Part shown: positions 1 to 8,532 of the stretch, piece after piece
Layout of the letters: each line of letters begins with the position of its first letter
How positions within the stretch are numbered: position 1 is the first letter of the stretch
Source of the DNA: Planctomycetota bacterium
GTDB taxonomy: Bacteria; Planctomycetota; Brocadiia; Brocadiales; Brocadiaceae
Assembly (NCBI GenBank): GCA_016873165.1
Contig: VGXV01000008.1
Span: forward strand, 1 to 64,000
DNA: 64,000 nt
Direction of reading: 5' to 3'
The notes under the pieces: generated by a model
Seen by the model: the letters and a program-made list of their open reading frames with translations, nothing else
Told to the model about the DNA's origin: nothing
Database searches by the model: none
Position numbers and translations under genes: made by a program

Positions 1-81
1 TTTTTGAAAAAGACTTCGATTCCCTTTATTTTATAAGGCATCTCTAATATTGACGTATGGAGCAAATTTCACCTCCATTAA

Positions 82-254
82 CTCCGCACTTTAGTGCGGA
101 GATATCCACAATAAATACACCGGCTTTGGTAGAGACAGGTTTGAAACCTGTCTCTACAACCTGGTGCAGTAAAAGATATTGGGCTAACTTTACCTCAGGG
201 CTGAAGCCCATGATTGTTTCTCCCCTTAACCCCATGCTGAAGCATGGGGTTAAG
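82..254. repeat. Cluster of four short palindromes
   Basis: Four inverted repeats lie within 175 bases: 82-101 (arms CTCCGCACT/AGTGCGGAG), 129-157 (14-base perfect arms starting GTAGAGACAGGTTT, 1-base centre), 198-209 (GGGCT-GA-AGCCC) and 225-254 (14-base perfect arms starting CTTAACCCCATGCT around GA). No convincing gene occupies positions 1-284. The two long ones resemble dispersed REP-like units. They sit just downstream of a truncated gene at 285-377. No transposase is adjacent; the nearest RAYT remnant is at 3.9 kb. Confidence 0.75.
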
Positions 255-284
255 ACATGGGCAATTTTTCAAAAAGCTAAAGTG

Positions 285-377
285 TTACGATTTATCTATA
301 GTCCGCCATACCCATTCTTCAGGAATCTCTCGTTCTTTCAACATGTCCTGGGTATGTGTTGATAGTTTAAAGTCCAT
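285..377 (-). pseudogene. Truncated DUF4258-like protein, N-terminal 30 residues
   Basis: An ATG at 375-377 overlaps the end of the preceding minus-strand gene and opens a 30-codon frame ending at TAA 285-287. The peptide contains THTQDMLKEREIPEEWVWRT, which resembles the N-terminal helix of DUF4258 proteins (H-x-x-x-M-x-E-R-x-I-P). Family members are normally about 80 residues, so the rest has been lost. Palindromes begin 31 bases downstream, which suggests repeat insertion or deletion truncated it. Family recognition is from a short stretch and is moderately sure; the truncation is clear if the assignment is right. Confidence 0.5.
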
Positions 378-645
378 ATTTTTTAGCAAGCAAAGCTGCG
401 TATTGGTATTCTGATGTTTTCATTAATGCATTGTATAATTTTTCAGTTGCATCATTTAATAATTTTTGATCTAAGCCATATTCATGTATAAGTTCATTAA
501 TCTCGTCTAACTGACGAAACAGATCATTTTTACCAAACCATTCACTACTATATTCATCAATTCTTTTTTGTTCTACTCGCTTTATTAATTTTGTTATTAA
601 ACTCTCTACCTCTGATAATGCCGCTGTTTGAGTTTTTGTAACCAA
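367..645 (-). CDS. Hypothetical helical protein, 92 aa, integron-cassette position
   Basis: Not recognised. The 92-residue product is charged and predicted all-helical (Ser/Glu/Lys/Leu-rich, with SEVESLITKLIKRVEQKRID near the N-terminus); no signal peptide, membrane segment or cysteines. The start is TTG at 643-645; no ATG is in frame upstream and no good Shine-Dalgarno is visible. It lies immediately 3' (minus-strand sense) of the attC-like site at 654-711, and its stop overlaps the start of the truncated DUF4258-like gene. Such pairing with a DUF4258-type toxin would fit an antitoxin-like role, but that is inference from position only. Confidence 0.6.
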   Translation of the reverse strand: MVTKTQTAALSEVESLITKLIKRVEQKRIDEYSSEWFGKNDLFRQLDEINELIHEYGLDQKLLNDATEKLYNALMKTSEYQYAALLAKKYGL

Positions 646-653
646 AACATTAC

Positions 654-711
654 GCCTACCGATAAAACTCAGCGGCGGCTATCAGCCGTCCGCTGGAGTG
701 ACTTGTTAGGT
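654..711 (-). other. attC-like integron recombination site A
   Basis: Read on the minus strand, the site opens with ACCTAAC (complement of 705-711; fits RYYYAAC) and closes with GGTAGGC (complement of 654-660; one change from GTTRRRY). Between them are imperfect arms CCAGCGGACGGCT and AGCCGCCGCTG around GAT. The length of 58 bases is near the short end of known attC sites. It directly follows the BrnT-module genes, as a cassette attC should; the antitoxin frame even reads into it. Confidence 0.75.
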
Positions 712-914
712 GCCCTCTTTTGTCTTTTAATAATTTTAGCTATCGATCTCAATGCCTGATTTACAGAGTCATGGTCAGGGAAAAATTTTGCAACATCTGG
801 ATCAATAACTACAACATTTGTTCCTTCCTCATATCTTTTTGTATATTTTCCCCGAATACCTTTGCTGAAATCATATTCTTCAAGCATGTCTGAATCTTTT
901 CGAGTTCTCTTCAT
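669..914 (-). CDS. Antitoxin partner of BrnT
   Basis: Start chosen at ATG 912-914, preceded by AAAGGAAACAGT (usable Shine-Dalgarno). The core EYDFSKGIRGKYTKRYEEGT followed by NVVVIDPDVAKFFPDHDSVN is a pattern I know from small antitoxin-like proteins encoded next to BrnT/DUF497 toxins. The frame overlaps the end of the upstream toxin by 35 bases, indicating translational coupling. The last ~14 residues (APNKSLQRTADSRR) are simply the attC sequence read as protein, a typical sign of a gene captured as a cassette. Role: binds and neutralises the toxin and probably represses the module (inferred from family). Confidence 0.7.
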   Translation of the reverse strand: MKRTRKDSDMLEEYDFSKGIRGKYTKRYEEGTNVVVIDPDVAKFFPDHDSVNQALRSIAKIIKRQKRAPNKSLQRTADSRR

Positions 915-1167
915 ACTGTTTCCTTTCTTTTTTTGTTGCGTTTCTTGCACTTATTATTCTGATTTTATCTCCTCTTTCTGTATGAACAATTACTAAAAGG
1001 TGATTTTTACAGGAGTTTCCAATTAAAATGAATCTATCCTCTTCGTCAGAATGCAGAGGATCATAAATCGTTAATGACAAGGTATCTTTAAAAGCAGTGC
1101 TTGCCTCATCAAAAGATACGCTGTGAATTTTAATATTCTTTTTTGCCTTGCTTGGATCCAAAAGCAT
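880..1167 (-). CDS. brnT: BrnT family (DUF497) toxin
   Basis: Contains the BrnT fold signature: DPSKAKKNIKIHSVSFDEAS near the N-terminus, then TLSLTIYDPLHSDEEDRF, LLVIVHTERGDKIRIISAR and a C-terminal KKERKQYEE. BrnT proteins are RelE-like ribonucleases of type II toxin-antitoxin systems. The open frame extends upstream to 1239, but that part lies in the attC-like site; the ATG at 1165-1167 gives the expected ~95-residue length. Toxin first and antitoxin second is the usual BrnT order. The module is bracketed by attC-like sites at 654-711 and 1234-1298, so it occupies one cassette. Confidence 0.8.
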   Translation of the reverse strand: MLLDPSKAKKNIKIHSVSFDEASTAFKDTLSLTIYDPLHSDEEDRFILIGNSCKNHLLVIVHTERGDKIRIISARNATKKERKQYEENSKRFRHA

Positions 1168-1233
1168 ATTTCGTTGTTTATCATAGCTTGCGCAGATGGA
1201 TTTGGCAATTTGCTGGCAAGGGTTCTTTATCAA

Positions 1234-1298
1234 GCCCAATGCAAAAGCTCACCACCGGAAGCAGGGCTGTATCCTGCGATCCAGTGAAGCGGTTTATT
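1234..1298 (-). other. attC-like site B (degenerate core)
   Basis: On the minus strand the stop codon of the 151-aa gene sits in a degraded R''-like AATAAAC; the other end is ATTGGGC (complement of 1234-1240), one base from GTTRRRY. Arms CACTGGATCGCAGG and CCTGCTTCCGGTG pair with one extrahelical base and a wobble, as attC sites do. 65 bases. The loss of G in the core suggests it may no longer recombine. Confidence 0.6.
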
Positions 1299-1752
1299 AT
1301 ACCTTCTTACCCTTCATTTTTTTAATCATTTTTTCAGGGTGTTCCCATTCAGTTCTACCTGATTTCTCCTCAAAGTAACCTCTAAAAGTATAGAGATCTT
1401 GCAAGAGTTTTTGTTCGCCAAATGACCCGGCAACGAACATTACAGACATCAGACCGCGATGGAAATAGTGAAAAATATTCTCAGTACATGAAGCAATTAG
1501 CGGTGTGTCTATCATTCCGGCAAGATAATATCGTGGTGGATCACCTCCGTACATCTCCATTATGTGACTAGATGCCCCATGCACATAGCCAGAAAATGTT
1601 TGACTTAATGTTCTGTGTATTTCTTTTGAATAAGTCCCACGTTTTACAAAGGCAGACTTCTCAATCTTGTTTTCGAGGACATGAAATGCTCGTTGGAGCA
1701 CGGGCAATGTTTCAAGGTAAAGGTCTATCATGTTTCTCATTATTTTAAGCAT
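1297..1752 (-). CDS. Hypothetical cassette protein, 151 aa
   Basis: I do not recognise the family. The protein is predicted mostly helical and soluble, with aromatic-rich central segments (GDPPRYYLAGMIDTPLIAS, ENIFHYFHRGLM) and a lysine-rich tail. The ATG at 1750-1752 lies in a truncated attC end (complement reads CGTTATGC); a second ATG five codons... within the first eight codons is also possible. The stop codon falls in attC-like site B, so the gene fills one cassette exactly. It could be the C-terminal part of a longer protein whose first half was lost on capture; nothing in the sequence proves that. Confidence 0.65.
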   Translation of the reverse strand: MLKIMRNMIDLYLETLPVLQRAFHVLENKIEKSAFVKRGTYSKEIHRTLSQTFSGYVHGASSHIMEMYGGDPPRYYLAGMIDTPLIASCTENIFHYFHRGLMSVMFVAGSFGEQKLLQDLYTFRGYFEEKSGRTEWEHPEKMIKKMKGKKV

Positions 1753-1775
1753 AACGAATGAGGTTTTGCGGCTTA
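1749..1775 (-). other. Truncated attC remnant
   Basis: The minus strand reads GCCGCAAAACCTCATTCGTT then ATGC directly after the stop of the 54-aa ORF. The ACCTCATTCGTT end resembles the 3' half (L'-R') of sites such as 5359-5439, which ends ACCTCAAACGTT. The 5' half is missing. It marks a likely old cassette boundary that can no longer fold as a full site. Confidence 0.4.
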
Positions 1776-1937
1776 AAACGCTATGCTTCTGTAATAGGGA
1801 TATTGGCCTTTAACATAAGAAAGAAAGTCCACGCCGTATGGCACGATCTTGACCACTAAGTCATTTTGCAGACCCTCGATGGTAATGAATTGCGAATCCT
1901 TCAAGAAACCGAGATAGTCGCTAACGACAAAACTCAC
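1773..1937 (-). CDS. Small hypothetical cassette ORF, 54 aa
   Basis: A 54-codon frame from GTG 1935-1937 (inside the 3' arm of attC-like site C) to TAA 1773-1775. The peptide runs MSFVVSDYLGFLKDSQFITI and later VKIVPYGVDFLSYVKGQY; composition is protein-like and hydrophobic/charged patterning is regular. It fills the space between attC-like site C and the truncated attC remnant, which is where a cassette gene should be. I do not know the family. It may be the tail of a longer captured protein. Confidence 0.45.
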   Translation of the reverse strand: MSFVVSDYLGFLKDSQFITIEGLQNDLVVKIVPYGVDFLSYVKGQYPYYRSIAF

Positions 1938-1991
1938 CTGCCGCTATGGAGCGTTAGCGAAATTGCGGTCAGGTGGAGTGCCTTGTTAGGC
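1919..1991 (-). other. attC-like site C
   Basis: On the minus strand: GCCTAAC (complement of 1985-1991; fits RYYYAAC) at the start, GTTAGCG (complement of 1919-1925; five to six of seven positions fit GTTRRRY) at the end, with arms CACCTGACCGC and GCGGCAGGTG enclosing a loop. 73 bases. It follows the hicA gene at 2001 by ten bases. This is one of the clearest sites of the array. Confidence 0.8.
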
Positions 1992-2000
1992 ACTGTGAAC

Positions 2001-2234
2001 TCATAATTCAAATTCACTACGTGGCAGTCCTGACTGGCGGATAATGGACTGCAAAGTCCCAATACGGACTTCATTGTGATTTGGAACCGGGACTGTAATA
2101 GTTCCCTGGGATAGTTTCTTTTGCATTATGATGTGGCTACCGCGTTGACGCACTTCAAAGAAACCGTTTTTTGCAAGGATAGCACAAACCTCTTTGCCGG
2201 GAAGAACACGGAGTTTACCCAACTGCCACCTCAA
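2001..2234 (-). CDS. hicA: HicA-type toxin (first HicBA module)
   Basis: The product has the HicA layout: GKEVCAILAKNGFFEVRQRG, SHIIMQKKL with the catalytic-type histidine, then VPVPNHNEVRIGTLQSIIRQ and GLPRSEF. HicA is a dsRBD-like mRNA interferase neutralised by HicB. The longest frame starts with TTG at 2234; a TTG at 2222 overlapping the hicB stop codon gives a more typical ~74-residue protein. hicB lies upstream and overlaps, so the two are co-translated. The attC-like site C starts ten bases after the stop. Confidence 0.85.
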   Translation of the reverse strand: MRWQLGKLRVLPGKEVCAILAKNGFFEVRQRGSHIIMQKKLSQGTITVPVPNHNEVRIGTLQSIIRQSGLPRSEFEL

Positions 2235-2430
2235 CCTGAGTCACAAAAATATCGTCATGAAGCCGATGTCTTATCTCTTCAGGTGATGCTGTCTCAAAAA
2301 ACAGTTCCAATGCTTCCCGAAGATTGTCCCGTGCTTGTTCTATACTATCGCCCTGGCTTGCGATATCTAACTCCGGACACAATGATACGTATCCATTACC
2401 TTCACGTTCAATAATTGCAGTAAGTTTCAT
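2215..2430 (-). CDS. hicB: HicB-type antitoxin (first HicBA module)
   Basis: MKLTAIIEREGNGYVSLCPE followed by LDIASQGDSIEQARDNLREA and LELFFETA is the partial-RNase-H fold of HicB antitoxins; length 71 aa is normal for the short form lacking a DNA-binding domain. The ATG at 2428-2430 is preceded by GAGAGGAGGTCATCA, a strong Shine-Dalgarno. It precedes and overlaps hicA. With no obvious operator domain, autoregulation may be weak; expression may come from an upstream cassette promoter. Confidence 0.85.
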   Translation of the reverse strand: MKLTAIIEREGNGYVSLCPELDIASQGDSIEQARDNLREALELFFETASPEEIRHRLHDDIFVTQVEVAVG

Positions 2431-2453
2431 TGATGACCTCCTCTCATCTTAAA

Positions 2454-2675
2454 CTACACTTCCAATAATATTAACACAGACTTCTCCATTTCCCAATCAA
2501 TATCTGCGTTAGTCGTATTCCAGGAAGCCGTCTTTGGGACTATAGCAACAGTGTTAAATTGAACATGTTTGATGTGGATTTTAGGGTTTTCGTTCAAGAA
2601 CTTCTGTATTTCACGCGCCAGATACTCATTTGCCGATAGCTTTCCGGTCTCGTCCCCTATCCTAATGGTATTGAA
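2454..2675 (-). CDS. Small hypothetical cassette ORF, up to 73 aa, no standard start
   Basis: An open frame runs from just after an in-frame TAG at 2676-2678 to TAG 2454-2456. The peptide includes IRIGDETGKLSANEYLAREI, QKFLNENPKIHIKHVQFNTV and a hydrophobic end KSVLILLEV: clearly protein-like, alternating helix and strand. No ATG, GTG or TTG occurs before codon ~28, so it either starts at ATT (2664 region) or lost its start when the attC-like site D formed beside it. It sits between attC-like site D and hicB. Family unknown to me. Confidence 0.5.
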   Translation of the reverse strand, partial: FNTIRIGDETGKLSANEYLAREIQKFLNENPKIHIKHVQFNTVAIVPKTASWNTTNADIDWEMEKSVLILLEV

Positions 2676-2742
2676 CTACCAAGCTCACCTGACCGCCATG
2701 AAGCGTAGAGGAATGGCGGTCAGGTGCAGCGCCTTGTTAGGC
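2673..2742 (-). other. attC-like site D
   Basis: Minus strand: GCCTAAC (complement of 2736-2742) opens the site, and arms CACCTGACCGCCAT and ATGGCGGTCAGGTG pair perfectly over 14 bases around a loop. The closing end reads GGTAGTTC, which does not match GTTRRRY well, so the R' core is degraded. 70 bases. It follows the second hicA gene by two bases. Confidence 0.7.
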
Positions 2743-2744
2743 AC

Positions 2745-2921
2745 TTAGTTTTCAAGCATTTTTATTATATGTTTGGCTAAATATTCTTTAATTTCATTGT
2801 GTCTTGGTACAGGTTGAGACGCTTTTGTTCTGGGATTCTGGTACCAATCGTGTTTTCCACCATGACGGATTAAAATACACCCCATCTTTTCGATTTGCTT
2901 TATCAAATCTCTTCTTTTCAT
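2745..2921 (-). CDS. hicA: HicA-type toxin (second HicBA module), 58 aa
   Basis: Start ATG 2919-2921 overlaps the hicB stop (ATGA). The 58-residue product MKRRDLIKQIEKMGCILIRH, then GGKHDWYQNPRTKASQPVPR and HNEIKEYLAKHIIKML is a full short HicA: LIK-x-L..G, RHGGKHD with the active-site histidine, and PVPRHxEI. It is short enough to be skipped by length-filtered gene calling. It lies directly before attC-like site D and is the last gene of its cassette. Confidence 0.85.
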   Translation of the reverse strand: MKRRDLIKQIEKMGCILIRHGGKHDWYQNPRTKASQPVPRHNEIKEYLAKHIIKMLEN

Positions 2922-3109
2922 GCAACTTCAAGCTCAGCAACTTTACGTATACATGGAATGTTACCGCTTGTTAATTCTTGGTAAATATCTTTTAAATTCT
3001 CTTTTAATTCTTCAAGTGATTCTCCCTGAGTTTGATAATCTGGATATTCTTCAAGGTAACCCAGCCACATATCACCATCTTGCCAATAAACATATTTTTT
3101 TCTTTTCAT
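2918..3109 (-). CDS. hicB: HicB-type antitoxin (second HicBA module), 63 aa
   Basis: The sequence YVYWQDGDMWLGYLEEYPDY then QTQGESLEELKENLKDIYQE is the HicB fold; at 63 aa it is the short antitoxin form without a DNA-binding tail. ATG at 3107-3109 is preceded by AAAAGGATAAATAAC (usable Shine-Dalgarno). It overlaps hicA by the four bases ATGA. Sequence identity to the other HicB in the window is low, so the two modules were probably acquired separately, not by local duplication. Confidence 0.82.
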   Translation of the reverse strand: MKRKKYVYWQDGDMWLGYLEEYPDYQTQGESLEELKENLKDIYQELTSGNIPCIRKVAELEVA

Positions 3110-3177
3110 GTTATTTATCCTTTTGTTAAAAATCAGATGTGATATTTTCTTCCCTTCTGCTTGAGCGTCTCGTTAAG

Positions 3178-3645
3178 TTAATCATAATTTTTAACCTCTT
3201 GATCCTTCCATATCTTACCTAATTTTGCAGGAGATCGGTAAGCAAAAAAATCCATAATTGAAAATGCAATAAGGGTTATAAGTATTGCAACTGATAAAAT
3301 TGGTCGAAATGGATAAAATAGAGAAATTATCCCGACAGCAACAGTTAATAAAGTAAAACCAATGTTTCCATACACAGCTAAATTTTGTCTGGTTTTGGGC
3401 TCGGTAAGAAAATTCTGCCAGAGAGTAAATTCTTCAGGCATCTTCCCATGCTTTTTTAAAGCAGGCTCTATATAATCACGAGTATAACAACCAATGCGTT
3501 TTATCGAAAAGCTGTAACTATAAATTATAAAATCCAAACAAATTGCAGCAAATGCTGGTATAACAAATAATGCTTTATCAAGAGTTTCTATATTTTTGGC
3601 CATTAATCCTATTGCCGTTGATATAAATGCAATTTTGAATCCCAT
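3178..3645 (-). CDS. Hypothetical membrane protein, 155 aa
   Basis: Predicted four membrane segments: about residues 5-20 and 25-45 (ALFVIPAFAAICLDFIIYSY), a soluble loop of ~50 residues containing EPALKKHGKMPEEFTLWQNF, then two segments around 92-135. This RipA-free, four-helix arrangement with a central charged loop is common in cassette-borne membrane proteins, but I cannot name the family. The start codon at 3645 is the first ATG; an inverted repeat begins 12 bases upstream (3657-3706), so the true start or promoter may have been disturbed. A clear attC does not follow the gene; only ACTTAAC just after its stop resembles an R'' core. Confidence 0.65.
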   Translation of the reverse strand: MGFKIAFISTAIGLMAKNIETLDKALFVIPAFAAICLDFIIYSYSFSIKRIGCYTRDYIEPALKKHGKMPEEFTLWQNFLTEPKTRQNLAVYGNIGFTLLTVAVGIISLFYPFRPILSVAILITLIAFSIMDFFAYRSPAKLGKIWKDQEVKNYD

Positions 3646-3656
3646 GGCCTGACGAT

Positions 3657-3706
3657 AATAGGGACAGCTACCATTTTTATGAAAATAAATAGTCGCTGTC
3701 CCTATT
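3657..3706. repeat. REP-like inverted repeat, RAYT-type
   Basis: Perfect 12-base arms AATAGGGACAGC (3657-3668) and GCTGTCCCTATT (3695-3706) enclose 26 AT-rich bases; allowing one indel the arms extend to 15-16 bases. This layout is typical of palindromes mobilised by REP-associated tyrosine transposases, and a RAYT remnant lies 170 bases away at 3874-4059. Positions 3707-3873 hold nothing else I can support. Confidence 0.7.
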
Positions 3707-3873
3707 TATCCTATAACAGGGTTTAAGTAGAGGTATCGCGAAAACGCCAAAAGATAAGAACTTTTTCGATAAGAATTGCCTTATATCGTCCCATGTCCCC
3801 GCATGAGGTGAAGTAGTGCCTTGTACCATAATATTCTATGCGAACGGTCTTTTCATGTCGACAAGTTAACAAA

Positions 3874-4059
3874 TCAGGCCAATGTCAATAGATTAGGTTT
3901 GACCCTATAGCCCCTTTTTTTCGTCTCTTTGCAGAGCGCAGCAATAATTTCCTCTTTTGCTGTATATTTTTTTAACCGCCTTACCGCCGGAATCTCACGT
4001 AACGACAGGTGTACGTGATACACTGCATCTTCGTATTGTATGCGTAATGGTCTTGCCAT
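3874..4059 (-). pseudogene. REP-associated tyrosine transposase (Y1, IS200-like) remnant
   Basis: The peptide starts MARPLRIQYEDAVYHV, the hallmark N-terminus of RAYT/IS200-like Y1 transposases (MARPLRIxYxxAxYHVxxRG). After YHV it jumps to unrelated or late-domain sequence (LREIPAVRRLKKYTAKEEII). The full protein is 200-300 aa with an HUH pair and a catalytic tyrosine; at 61 aa the HUH motif and catalytic region are gone. It is an internally deleted, dead copy within the cassette array. RTTTGACCCT-like motifs at 3897 and 4085 flank it. Confidence 0.75.
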
Positions 4060-4166
4060 TACAAAATCAGATCAGATACAAACGATTTGTCAACGATAAA
4101 GATTTGACCCCTTTTCATCTTTTTTTTCCATAAAGATGACCTCTCAATAACTTAGGTATTTAATTT

Positions 4167-5333
4167 TCATGTCAGCATAACGTCGCCTGCATCCGTCTTG
4201 TTGGGCTCCGTATTCAAGATATGATTGTCATATTTTTTGCGCATGCGGATGTCGTGATTTCGCTCCTCCGCAAGTTGGCGGAGCACCCCAATCAATTCCC
4301 CTGATTCGCTTCTGAGTTCGTTGAGCGTGTCGATTGTTCGGTCAAGGTGTTCGTCAAGTTCCCACAGGCTGTGTGCGCTGAGTTCATTCTGTTGCCACCA
4401 CTTCCCAATGATCCCCCAGCCTTCACCGATACATCTATGGGCATCAGGGAACTCTAGTTCACCAAAACAGTCAGATGCATTGTAGGAAACTTGAAGCAAT
4501 CTTACGGCAGGCTTGGGATGAGACCTCAGAGCCGATTCATGCGGTTTAGTCTTCATGTCTAGGACATGAAAAAACATTGAAAGCGACAACGACCATGTCG
4601 TGAGGGGGGGCACCTCCGTAAGCAACGGAAAAGTCCCACGCCTACAGAGCTTTGTCCACAGAATCAGGTTGGTTTCTGCTGCGGCCGTATCTGCGTCCAA
4701 TTCGAGAGCCTGCAATGTCCGAGCTTGGCTCTCCGAAAGACGGACCGTCCTGTACTCAACATGGCGATCAATTCCGAACGTGGTCTTGAGGTATCGTAAA
4801 TGCGCCCTACAGACATGACTGACTTCATGTGCGAACACGAACGCCATGGCGTTCCAAGCAAGATGTTGCGCTACGCGAACACGGTCGCCATCCTTTGGAA
4901 GAAGCGACTCCATCAGCTTCCATGATTGCGGCTGAAGCAGAGCGTCGATATTCCTCTTCTCGGCCTTCTCGACCTCTGCGTCACCGATGTTTGGTAGCAC
5001 TGTGGGTGAAGACATAAGCAGGTAAAAGGCTTGATAGATCAAGGCCACCAGCCCCCAGTTGATGCCGATCAACTCCAACTGATTGGATACAAACGCGGTG
5101 GCGTTGACCTCGGCGTTGTCTACGAAGTCAACTGTCAAGTTGCCGGTTGGATTGTATGGCGGGTCTGCAAAACGGGCGGCATTGAGAAGCCATCGATAGT
5201 AATCCAGCAATCCCTGCATCCCATCGCGGGTTGTGGGGTGAACCGTCGAGAGGTCAAGTCTGCCACCATATTCGCGAAACGCCCTATCGAAAGAACCCTC
5301 GGCTGACGGATTCAAATGAGAGTCGGTTGCCAT
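4167..5333 (-). CDS. Zincin metallopeptidase, peptidase U49/Lit-like, cassette gene
   Basis: About 388 residues. HEVSH (residues ~169-173 from the chosen start) is an HExxH zinc site, and ELDADTAAAE about 40 residues later supplies a third-ligand motif as in M48/U49-type zincins. The segment before it (WNAMAFVFAHEVSHVCRAHL) is hydrophobic and helical. Lit-type U49 proteases cleave elongation factor Tu and block phage growth; that role here is inference. ATG 5331-5333 is preferred over ATG 5348 because GAGGAG lies four bases upstream of it. The attC-like site E ends 26 bases upstream. Base composition is visibly more GC-rich than the chromosomal genes around, consistent with transfer. Confidence 0.6.
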   Translation of the reverse strand: MATDSHLNPSAEGSFDRAFREYGGRLDLSTVHPTTRDGMQGLLDYYRWLLNAARFADPPYNPTGNLTVDFVDNAEVNATAFVSNQLELIGINWGLVALIYQAFYLLMSSPTVLPNIGDAEVEKAEKRNIDALLQPQSWKLMESLLPKDGDRVRVAQHLAWNAMAFVFAHEVSHVCRAHLRYLKTTFGIDRHVEYRTVRLSESQARTLQALELDADTAAAETNLILWTKLCRRGTFPLLTEVPPLTTWSLSLSMFFHVLDMKTKPHESALRSHPKPAVRLLQVSYNASDCFGELEFPDAHRCIGEGWGIIGKWWQQNELSAHSLWELDEHLDRTIDTLNELRSESGELIGVLRQLAEERNHDIRMRKKYDNHILNTEPNKTDAGDVMLT

Positions 5334-5358
5334 TGTACTCCTCGTCATGAATCTTCAA

Positions 5359-5439
5359 GCCCAACGTTTGAGGTAACCGGCAGCCAAAAGCAAAGCGAAG
5401 CGTCGCTTTTGGCTGTCCGGGTTGACCGAATTGTTAGCC
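5359..5439 (-). other. attC-like site E
   Basis: Minus strand: begins GGCTAACAATTCGGTCAACC, ends GGTTACCTCAAACGTTGGGC. The R' core GTTGGGC (complement of 5359-5365) fits GTTRRRY exactly; R'' GGCTAAC differs at one position. L arms CAACCCGG/CCGGTTACC and a long inner hairpin (AGCCAAAAGCGACG / CGCTTTGCTTTTGGCT) complete a textbook attC of 81 bases. It lies 10 bases after the 174-aa gene and just before the metallopeptidase gene. Confidence 0.85.
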
Positions 5440-5449
5440 GCCTTAATCA

Positions 5450-5974
5450 TCAGGGGTATGCTCCGTCATCAGAATCCATATCACTGCTCATAACATTTCC
5501 CTGTACGTTCATTGCGTGCTCGTATCCAGGTATCTCTTTGCCATCTAAGTCAAGCTTCCAAACCCTAGGAAACGGCCCAAACCATTCCTTGTAAACGCTC
5601 ATCCACAGCGTGTTGTCCATTACGCCTTTTCCATAATTGCTAGGAATATGGTGTATTGTCTTTCCGTATACTTTTTTGCAAAAATCCTCGTAGCGCTGCG
5701 TATCAAGAATAAATGAATGCCAAGCCGCAGCCACGATCGGGCCAAAGCATCCCATCGGGTGGATATCTCTAAGAACTTTGACAGCAAAAAACTTCTTCAA
5801 CTCCTCAACGGCTTCGTCGTGTACTGTCCGTAATTGAACACCTCGACGAATCAACTGGTCGCCAGTCAGGAATGAAAAATCCCAGTCATGGATCTTCTTG
5901 ATTGTGGCTTGCTCACTTTTCTTTAGCTCCTTCCAAGGGGTGGTCATAATTTTTAGTGGTTTCGTTTCTGTCAT
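5450..5974 (-). CDS. Glycine-rich-domain-like (DUF1399) protein, 174 aa
   Basis: The motif WHSFILDTQRYEDFCKKVYG (residues ~85-104) followed by KTIHHIP matches the conserved W-H-x-x-(I/L)-L-D-T-x-x-Y...HHxP core of glycine-rich-domain-like (GRDP/DUF1399) proteins. Function of bacterial members is not established. Start ATG 5974 has AGGAGATATGCT upstream, a strong Shine-Dalgarno. The radical SAM gene ends 24 bases upstream, so the two form one transcription unit inside what appears to be the first integron cassette. It could be a substrate, an accessory factor or an unrelated passenger. Acidic C-terminus (SSDMDSDDGAYP) with repeated Asp. Confidence 0.6.
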   Translation of the reverse strand: MTETKPLKIMTTPWKELKKSEQATIKKIHDWDFSFLTGDQLIRRGVQLRTVHDEAVEELKKFFAVKVLRDIHPMGCFGPIVAAAWHSFILDTQRYEDFCKKVYGKTIHHIPSNYGKGVMDNTLWMSVYKEWFGPFPRVWKLDLDGKEIPGYEHAMNVQGNVMSSDMDSDDGAYP

Positions 5975-5998
5975 AGCATATCTCCTAGTGGGTGGTGG

Positions 5999-7861
5999 TT
6001 AGTGGGGATGGTAATTTAAGTAAACTTGGCTTTGGTGCCGCAAGCCGACAATCAGACCGGAAAGTGAGAGCGATTCAATCCACTTTATCCAGTAGTCGCT
6101 ACCTATAGTTGAGTATTTGGTGTAGAGACGGCTCAAGTCATCAAAACGCACTTCTCTGTTCGGCGTCGCGATTATCTCTTCAAGAATAGGTCTCTCCCAT
6201 TCAGTGACTTCCCATTTGTAACCAATAGATATCAACCACAAAATATTTTGGTAGGGGTTAAGGAAACGCGCGCTTCCGTCAAAAACAAGGACATCCGCAA
6301 TTCGAAGAGAATCGAAATCAACCTTCGTAGAGCGTCGTCGTAAAAGCGTGCGCCATTTCATGCCCAGAAATGCCCTATTGACTATGTTTCTATCAGTTGC
6401 TGATAGCGGGTCGCGACTGTCGTACACAACTCCGTGATATCCATGATTTGTCTTAATGTATGCATCTTTCGTGATTGTTATGCCAAATAGCTCTGGCTGC
6501 GCCTGAATAGGTGTGCCTGCGGTTAAATCAAATGATTGTGGATTTAACGAGTCAATAAATGGTAGCAAAGACTCAAATCTATTGACGTTCTCGTATGCTT
6601 CTATCGATGTTGTCGTAGGATAGTCTGGAATTGCGTTTGAAACAGTTGTAATTCCAGCATTGCTTGCGGCAGTAAGGTTTGCTCTTATCCCTTCGTAGTT
6701 GGCTTGCTTTTTCATTACATCTAGAATTCGATCAATACAGGATTCTGTGCCGAAATTTATGGCTTTGACGCCAGCGTTCGCCAAGTGTTCATAGTAATCA
6801 GACCCCAAACTGTTGTGGTGCATCATGTACGACCAAGTACGAAGTGGGATCTGGCGACTAATTGCAAGATCCGCGAGGCGCTTGTACCAACCGGGAGGTA
6901 TGGCATCTGAGATCAAATTTACGTCGTCGAATGTGTGTATGTTTCTGAGATGCGCGATCTCATTGATGACAGTTTCTGGATCTCTATCTATATATCGTTT
7001 ATCCCCAATATCGGACAAACGAGGGTAATCGCAGAAAGTACACTTCCCCCAATAACAGCCCTTGGTAACAAGCACAGGAAGACTGACAGGGTGAAAATAC
7101 TGATTAAGGCCTTCAAACAAAGGGACGGGTAACTTGTTGAGATCTCCTCGCGCCATTGGCCCAGAGTGAAGTACCCCCCTCTTTTTCTCTTGATCAGTTT
7201 GAAGTGCGAATTGTTGAATGGTTTTCTCACCATTTCCAATTGAAATTAAGTCGAATAAATTCGAGCTTTCAAGGGCCGATATCTGCGTGATTTCAAGCAA
7301 ATTTACTTGGCTCCCTCCCAGCCAAATACTTGTTTCTGGAGAAGATGCTTTAAACAATTTCGCGAGTTCAATTGCCTCCGGCAGTTGTTCGCTAAATGCA
7401 ACAGAAAAGCAGATTGCCCTAGGCGATCTTGAGAGAATTTCCTTGATAAATCCATAATAAAGCTGACTTGCTACTGTCGGCCTGTCTTGATGCGATACAA
7501 GGCAAAGTTGAAGCTCTTGGGGGATAGGAAATACGAAAGGACGAATTGCGGCGAGGGCATTTCTCAACGCTAGAGGGTTTCCATTCAAGAAGACTTCCAA
7601 AGATGTTGATGTAAGAGATTGAATGGCCGCCAATGCGTGCTCGACCTCTTCAGAGGTGGCTGAGCTTGCCTCAATTACGCTCTGCGCTTCCTCAAGAAAC
7701 TCTCTTTCGATAACCCTTCTTACTGTCTTGATGTTCAAATCATACGAGACAGTTTCAACGTCTACTTCACGCAGAATAGCACTAAGCAATGGTATTGCTA
7801 AGTGCGGCCCGTGAAGCGCCGACTCCGAGAATGGAGGAAAGATAAATGCAATTTCTTTCAT
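5999..7861 (-). CDS. B12-binding-type radical SAM enzyme, 620 aa
   Basis: Residues ~1-220 look like the N-terminal Rossmann-type (cobalamin-binding-like) region of class B radical SAM proteins (IAFIFPPFSESALHGPHLAI; later LGGSQVN, ISIGNGEKTIQQF). The radical SAM cluster motif is GCYWGKCTFCDYP with Cys269, 274 and 277, i.e. CX4CX2C, one residue longer than canonical CX3CX2C but known in this class. Residues ~290-480 form the TIM-barrel (FDDVNLISDAIP, KAINFGTESC). Substrate unknown. It starts 18 bases after the attI-like core at 7879-7885 and is followed closely by the 174-aa protein, so both may share one cassette. Confidence 0.8.
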   Translation of the reverse strand: MKEIAFIFPPFSESALHGPHLAIPLLSAILREVDVETVSYDLNIKTVRRVIEREFLEEAQSVIEASSATSEEVEHALAAIQSLTSTSLEVFLNGNPLALRNALAAIRPFVFPIPQELQLCLVSHQDRPTVASQLYYGFIKEILSRSPRAICFSVAFSEQLPEAIELAKLFKASSPETSIWLGGSQVNLLEITQISALESSNLFDLISIGNGEKTIQQFALQTDQEKKRGVLHSGPMARGDLNKLPVPLFEGLNQYFHPVSLPVLVTKGCYWGKCTFCDYPRLSDIGDKRYIDRDPETVINEIAHLRNIHTFDDVNLISDAIPPGWYKRLADLAISRQIPLRTWSYMMHHNSLGSDYYEHLANAGVKAINFGTESCIDRILDVMKKQANYEGIRANLTAASNAGITTVSNAIPDYPTTTSIEAYENVNRFESLLPFIDSLNPQSFDLTAGTPIQAQPELFGITITKDAYIKTNHGYHGVVYDSRDPLSATDRNIVNRAFLGMKWRTLLRRRSTKVDFDSLRIADVLVFDGSARFLNPYQNILWLISIGYKWEVTEWERPILEEIIATPNREVRFDDLSRLYTKYSTIGSDYWIKWIESLSLSGLIVGLRHQSQVYLNYHPH

Positions 7862-7878
7862 GCGTACCTATCCTATGC

Positions 7879-7885
7879 GGCTAAC
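7879..7885 (-). other. Candidate attI-side recombination core
   Basis: Minus strand reads TTTGTTAGCCGCATAGG; GTTAGCC is one base from GTTRRRY and identical to the complement of the R'' core of attC-like site E. It lies between the integrase remnant (7953, + strand) and the first minus-strand gene (7861), which is where attI is expected in an integron. Too short to prove alone; geometry is the main support. Confidence 0.5.
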
Positions 7886-7952
7886 AAATTATTATACAGT
7901 TTCTGCCTTTTAACAAACAAAAACTTGAAAGTCAACGCATATTTATAAATTA

Positions 7953-8532
7953 TTGACAAAAAATATAAAAATACGTATATTGCTTCAGGATACCATTACT
8001 TTTGGTGTGATAGACAGAAAAGAGGATATTTCTTACAGGATTAATATCCCAAACGAATTGTGGTTAAAATACGGAAAGATTTTGACAAAAAAGACGGTTC
8101 CTGTTTCATTCCATAATCATTATAAAAAATGGCTGCGATACTACCTTGACTACTGTCATAAATATAATCAACCTTATTCCGACCATCAATCTCTTAAGAA
8201 ATACTTAGAAAAACTGCAGGAGAAAAATCAACCACCTGAGCAGCAAAAGGAAGCAATGCGTGCTGTGTTCATTTATTACGAGATGCTGCAGCCATGTTTT
8301 GAATCAATAAAGCACAACAATAACCTTTTTTCTGTTTCTTCAGAAAGCGTTGGGAATAGAAAAGCTGACGCATTACCGCCACAGCTTTGCCACCCATCTC
8401 CTGCAGGCTAATTACGATATCCGCACAATTCAGGAGTTGTTGGGACACAGTGATGTCAGGACTACCATGATATATACTCATACGATCAAAAGCCAGACAG
8501 TTAAAGAGGCAAAAAGCCCTCTGGATTTCTGA
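7953..8532 (+). pseudogene. intI: Integron-type tyrosine recombinase, internally deleted and frameshifted
   Basis: The first frame (7953-~8310) resembles the SAM-like N-terminal domain of integron integrases: HNHYKKWLRYYLDYCHKYNQ then EKLQEKNQPPEQQKEAMRAV. A second frame (about 8350-8532) gives the catalytic C-terminus: [39 protein letters not shown] and an end KEAKSPLDF, close to the (V/A)RSPLD ending of IntI proteins. Some 130-180 residues in between, including the box I arginine and the IntI-specific region, are missing, and a frame change joins the parts. It cannot encode an active integrase. It points away from the minus-strand cassette array, as intI does. Confidence 0.8.

Follow-up and report, generated by a model that had tools for sequence, protein, structure and literature searches.

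The window analysed here is a stretch of 64,000 nucleotides from a planctomycetotal contig (VGXV01000008.1), and the locus under study is a two-gene integron cassette with the remains of an integrase on one side and a second cassette on the other. In window coordinates, the features are as follows:

8374..8526, forward strand: integron integrase C-terminal remnant (TIGR02249 positions 264-313, E 2.6e-20, below cut-off)
7953..8330, forward strand: tyrosine recombinase N-terminal remnant (PF13495, E 0.0013), divergent from the cassette
7888..7916, reverse strand: weak promoter-like site TTGTTA-17-AATAAT, upstream of the cassette in a Pc-like position
7879..7885, reverse strand: attI/cassette junction core GTTAGCC, separating the cassette genes from the divergent integrase remnant
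5365..7884, reverse strand: integron gene cassette 1, 2,520 bp, two genes, with matching start core and attC R''
5999..7861, reverse strand: B12-binding-like radical SAM protein, 620 aa (matches to PF04055, PF02310 and TIGR03975; CX4CX2C)
5982..5986, reverse strand: Shine-Dalgarno sequence AGGAG of the GRDP-like gene, read upstream of its start codon
5450..5974, reverse strand: GRDP-like protein, 174 aa (helical domain at about 14-140, low-confidence C-terminal tail at about 141-174)
5359..5439, reverse strand: attC of cassette 1 (R'' GGCTAAC ... R' GTTGGGC), an 81-nt hairpin
4167..5348, reverse strand: next cassette, encoding a HExxH-type protein of 393 aa (M48/Lit-like, weak)

The start core of an integrated cassette has to complement the R'' site of its own attC. 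Here, the R'' of the attC behind the second gene reads GGCTAAC, exactly the start core GTTAGCC (7885-7879) in reverse complement, and GGCTAAC occurs a single time on the cassette strand within positions 1-8000. This attC (5439-5359) is predicted to fold into a strong hairpin (-36.9 kcal/mol over 81 nt). A strict scan for the RYYYAAC consensus yielded zero matches because R'' reads GGCTAAC at this locus; in the scan with one mismatch allowed, none of the stronger candidates fell between 5440 and 7880, and the 24-bp gap between the two genes is in any case too short to accommodate an attC. The match between core and R'', the folded attC and the lack of an internal attC therefore delimit one genuine, well-bounded cassette of 2,520 bp with two genes. 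Both open reading frames are uninterrupted, start with ATG and lie on the minus strand, AGGAG precedes the second of them, and their GC contents are similar (44-45%). The preliminary description had placed two genes 24 bases apart in a single cassette of about 2.5 kb, running from an attI-like core to an attC, and had named an attC between them as the finding that would speak against this arrangement; the arrangement is borne out in each respect. The promoter-like site upstream of the cassette matches 9 of 12 consensus bases, but sites of this kind do not clearly exceed chance expectation in the region.

The integrase is broken: within 7953-8526 its N- and C-terminal parts lie in different frames and the middle is missing, and no integrase scoring over the TIGR02249 cut-off was found in the whole genome. 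The array can thus hardly be reshuffled at present unless an integrase comes from outside. Cassettes remain cassettes after the decay of the integrase, so that its loss affects whether they can move today but not whether they count as cassettes. Further integrase fragments are found on three other contigs of the same genome (C28, C96 and C4). The next cassette also follows the core rule, GTTGGGC being paired with GCCCAAC (4206-4200); its own attC (4150-4206) ends just past this R'', and most of the recombination hairpin is lost. More attC-like hairpins are present at 596-2742, together with a gene for a BrnT toxin (880-1239), in an array with toxin-antitoxin-type cargo. Anti-phage and stress-defence units are frequent cassette cargo, and the two-gene cassette might be one of them, purely by context, given its company of a BrnT toxin and a HExxH protein that weakly matches Lit; in PADLOC, however, the GRDP-like protein matched nothing and the radical SAM protein scored a mere 15 bits, and we consider a defence function very unlikely.

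The first gene encodes a 620-aa protein in which the radical SAM domain is recognised above the cut-off (PF04055, E 1e-10), whereas the match of its N-terminus to the B12-binding domain PF02310 stays below it (E 4.2e-6; 27.0 bits versus a cut-off of 32.1). Its assignment to class B radical SAM enzymes with a CX4CX2C cluster motif, proposed earlier, is consistent with these matches and with the motif itself (KGCYWGKCTFC). The same spacing is found in 27 of the 27 nearest relatives and is therefore a mark of the clade rather than an oddity of this protein. Among NCBIfam models, the best match is TIGR03975 (E 2.5e-20, aligned over residues 4 to 442), followed by weaker matches to TIGR04072, PhpK, HpnR and ApyD; the protein remains far below every curated cut-off. 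Proteins of the TIGR03975 family (rSAM_ocin_1, RiPP C-methyltransferases) resemble it in combining a B12-binding-like N-terminus, putative in the cassette enzyme, with a radical SAM domain in about 606-620 aa. In contrast to them, the cassette enzyme, at 72.5 bits, falls well short of the cut-off (281.85), its C-terminal third is unaligned, and its cassette contains no short precursor peptide. No Pfam domain, and hence no recognised RRE, was detected in the C-terminal 155 residues at E up to 10. A model predicted without an alignment reached a pLDDT of 35.5, too low for the model to be used, and the search for relatives with solved structures retrieved none.

Matches to this enzyme at E <1e-25 were found in 28 of 392 genomes of the same phylum, the window's own genome included, and all the other matches in the phylum are only about 24-32% identical to it. 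Those relatives for which the genomic surroundings were read proved solitary, their neighbours being unrelated genes, often of housekeeping function, with no evident precursor peptide. The 398 genomes surveyed from the phylum of a Variovorax locus gave no relative at E <1e-30, a negative result with no internal positive control; the same query and search method did retrieve relatives in the window's own phylum.

The second gene encodes a 174-aa protein with the segment AAWHSFILDTQRYEDFC..IHHIP (motif WHxFILxTxxY..C..HHxP). Judging from its sequence relatives, one of which is named 'glycine-rich domain-containing protein-like' in RefSeq, and from its predicted fold, this protein is a divergent member of the GRDP-like family, as had been proposed. 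An AlphaFold2 model built from 47 sequences (pLDDT 78.9, pTM 0.74) consists of a helical domain predicted with good confidence and a 34-aa tail predicted with low confidence, and its best Foldseek match is a giant-virus protein named GRDP-like (probability 1.00, E 0.01, TM about 0.5-0.6); no resembling structure was found in the PDB. With bacterial GRDP-like proteins it shares the helical fold and the core WHxFILxTxxY..FC..G..HHxP..W, in which V81, W85, H86, F88, Y95, C99, H108, H109, P111 and W139 are kept. It differs from them in that D82 and E87 are replaced (D and E are present in 46 and 44, respectively, of 47 aligned rows) and in the lack of a Cys/Gly-rich tail. No match to the protein was found in Pfam at E up to 1, nor in PHROG; since clear bacterial GRDP-like relatives are likewise unmatched, Pfam evidently does not cover this branch of the family. 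The tail, GNVMSSDMDSDDGAYP, contains no Cys and is similar to no known core. The preliminary description had suggested looking for a conserved core region in this partner, and no conserved core peptide is visible in the tail.

When the protein was used as a single query, a scan of 84,980 genomes gave 42 pattern matches and 0 relatives. Viral contigs contained no close relatives of either cassette protein. The GRDP-like gene is absent from two sister genomes of the same genus, which is consistent with sporadic acquisition.

The closest GRDP-like proteins (29-36% identity, collinear into the tail) are encoded on plasmids of Streptomyces and Macrococcus, and a tree groups them with the window protein (support 98/88), which forms a long branch. 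A profile of the Cys/Gly-tailed group nevertheless matches the window protein over a longer stretch and with 61.6 bits, versus 54.3 bits for the Streptomyces/Macrococcus profile; the evidence for placing it in the Streptomyces/Macrococcus subgroup is no more than moderate. The plasmid-borne genes adjoin those for a LanL/LanKC-like kinase, a RamC/LanKC-type N-terminal domain, DUF6875, GNAT and an MFS exporter, in the following sets (locus coordinates):

L146:4403-8248, gene set of Macrococcus plasmid CP124578.1
L148:5989-8367, L147:5989-8376 and L050:5013-7388, gene sets of Streptomyces plasmids

A small GRDP-like protein ending in EWDC.P, a LanL/LanKC-like kinase and GNAT are shared between the two phyla; to these, the Streptomyces sets add DUF6875, and the Macrococcus set adds the RamC/LanKC-type N-terminal domain and the MFS exporter. 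No description of this gene set was found in the literature searched. It has the appearance of a modification operon, either lanthipeptide-like or of a new type. The window pair resembles it in having a small GRDP-like protein with a collinear C-terminus beside an enzyme of peptide-modification type; unlike the window pair, these operons encode kinase, lyase, GNAT and DUF6875 instead of a radical SAM enzyme, and the tails of their GRDP-like proteins contain EWDC. The pairing of a small GRDP-like protein with a modification enzyme would therefore not be confined to the window, the type of enzyme being what differs.

Many bacterial GRDP-like proteins possess Cys/Gly/Ser-rich C-terminal tails such as CGGGCGGGD, which have the look of modified or metal-binding tails. 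Tails of the ..CGGGCGGGD type were seen in proteins from Variovorax, Rhodoferax, Neptuniibacter and Thalassolituus. In one locus, a 528-aa open frame (L015:436-2019, reverse strand) joins a GRDP-like domain to a TIGR04222 domain, followed by a Cys/Gly-rich tail. Some members of the TIGR04222 family have been proposed as protein-sized substrates of MNIO enzymes (PMC12452194). TIGR04222 proteins are comparable to the window protein in being candidates of protein size whose low-complexity tail might be modified, with the GRDP-like domain standing in front in the fused frame; in contrast, the window pair includes neither an MNIO nor a TIGR04222 domain and lacks a Cys tail. A conserved protein of about 362 aa without a Pfam match directly follows the GRDP-like gene at locus L135 (10318-11403) and at 14 other loci; in those looked at, the GRDP-like tail is of the ..CGAC/CGSC type.

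A scan of 84,980 genomes supplied 80 GRDP-like loci, and recurrence of the pair was sought in these together with flanks of up to 10 kb per side; the scan pattern favoured one part of the GRDP-like family, and the Streptomyces type was reached via plasmids only. Neither BLASTP nor a profile of 28 radical SAM sequences detected a relative of the cassette enzyme in the flanks of any of the 80 loci, and none was present at E <1e-20 in 25 whole genomes of GRDP-like hosts and 9 plasmid records. Conversely, no GRDP-like match lies beside the nearest relatives of the enzyme (flanks of about 1.5 kb). GRDP-like genes have varied neighbours, among them genes for oxidoreductases, ion channels and acyl-CoA synthetases and, more broadly, metabolic and transport genes, with no modifying enzyme in common. 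One apparent second example was rejected: on Streptomyces plasmid CP108533.1 (L151), a radical SAM gene lies about 1 kb from a GRDP-like gene, and its 378-aa product is an unrelated enzyme, closest to mycofactocin/MoaA/PqqE-type enzymes and with no similarity to the window's radical SAM protein. At that locus (L151:3794-6429), the radical SAM gene is followed by one for a 42-aa peptide ending in GCGEDNPF. The preliminary description had held that the absence of the pair elsewhere would tell against it as a modification system; within the collections sampled, the pair was found at this locus only, and the evidence therefore counts against a general system of radical SAM enzyme and GRDP-like protein.

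Two unrelated genes might have been joined when the cassette was born and be co-transcribed without any joint action, as the lack of a second example, the inconstant neighbours of GRDP-like genes and the unrelated cargo of the neighbouring cassettes would suggest. Most cassettes, however, hold a single gene, and those with several tend to carry genes that function as a unit, toxin-antitoxin pairs for example. The gene spacing and the Shine-Dalgarno sequence are operon-like, and the GC content is alike in both genes. We regard a chance pairing as unlikely.

We tentatively favour, at somewhat less than an even chance, the explanation that the pair consists of an enzyme and its protein substrate. 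The cassette would then be a two-gene operon whose products act jointly: the B12-dependent radical SAM enzyme would bind the folded helical domain (about residues 14-140) of the GRDP-like protein and modify the latter in or near its flexible C-terminal tail, most likely by methylation of an unactivated carbon, the GRDP-like protein serving as a protein-sized leader-plus-tail substrate or carrier. The physical interaction, the residue changed, the methylation chemistry and the biological purpose are all points that we infer. What leads us to this reading is the placement of both genes, 24 bp apart, in a single cassette whose ends match, the RiPP C-methyltransferase model as best NCBIfam match, the combination of a confident helical domain with a low-confidence tail in the partner, the LanL/LanKC-like enzymes beside the closest GRDP-like proteins, the Cys/Gly/Ser-rich tails of many bacterial members and the fusion to TIGR04222. 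Against it stand the absence of the pair from the 80 loci, 25 genomes and 9 plasmid records, the divergence and solitary setting of the enzyme's relatives, its scores below all cut-offs and its lack of a recognised RRE, a Cys-free tail unlike known cores, GRDP-like neighbours without a common modifying enzyme, and the long branch of the window protein, which the Cys/Gly-tailed profile matches at least as well as the Streptomyces/Macrococcus one. The earlier idea of an enzyme with its substrate or carrier gains indirect support from the peptide-modification enzymes beside the Streptomyces and Macrococcus relatives, whereas its extension to a general modification system is weakened by the unrepeated pair.

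The same genes could be read with the roles differently assigned. The GRDP-like protein may be an accessory of the radical SAM enzyme (a chaperone, a substrate-delivery subunit or a cofactor-holding subunit), the enzyme acting on another molecule, which might be a lipid, a small molecule, or a peptide or protein whose gene lies elsewhere. The conserved W85/H86/Y95/C99/H108/H109/P111 core resembles a working domain rather than a passive tag, the enzyme's relatives fall variously under RiPP, phosphorus and lipid methyltransferase models, and a Cys-rich tail that could be modified is missing from several GRDP-like relatives; yet the cassette provides no third gene as substrate, and D82 and E87 have been lost from the window protein. 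An accessory role seems to us somewhat unlikely.

GRDP-like proteins are present in plants, giant viruses, phages and many bacteria, and the literature and family descriptions searched give no biochemical activity for the bacterial ones. Should the enzyme-substrate reading favoured above extend beyond the window, GRDP-like domains might be the folded leaders or carriers in a class of post-translationally modified proteins that is large and has gone unrecognised, the tails of these proteins being modified by different enzymes, with the cassette as the smallest mobile unit. We hold this generalisation to be doubtful; if it were true, the radical SAM enzyme of the window, and the lanthionine-synthetase-like kinase and lyase of Streptomyces and Macrococcus, would act on GRDP-like C-terminal tails. 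The patterns of tails and neighbours make the idea of modified proteins testable in other, better-populated genomes, and the two-gene cassette with its radical SAM enzyme would be the smallest system in which to seek a reaction involving a GRDP-like protein.
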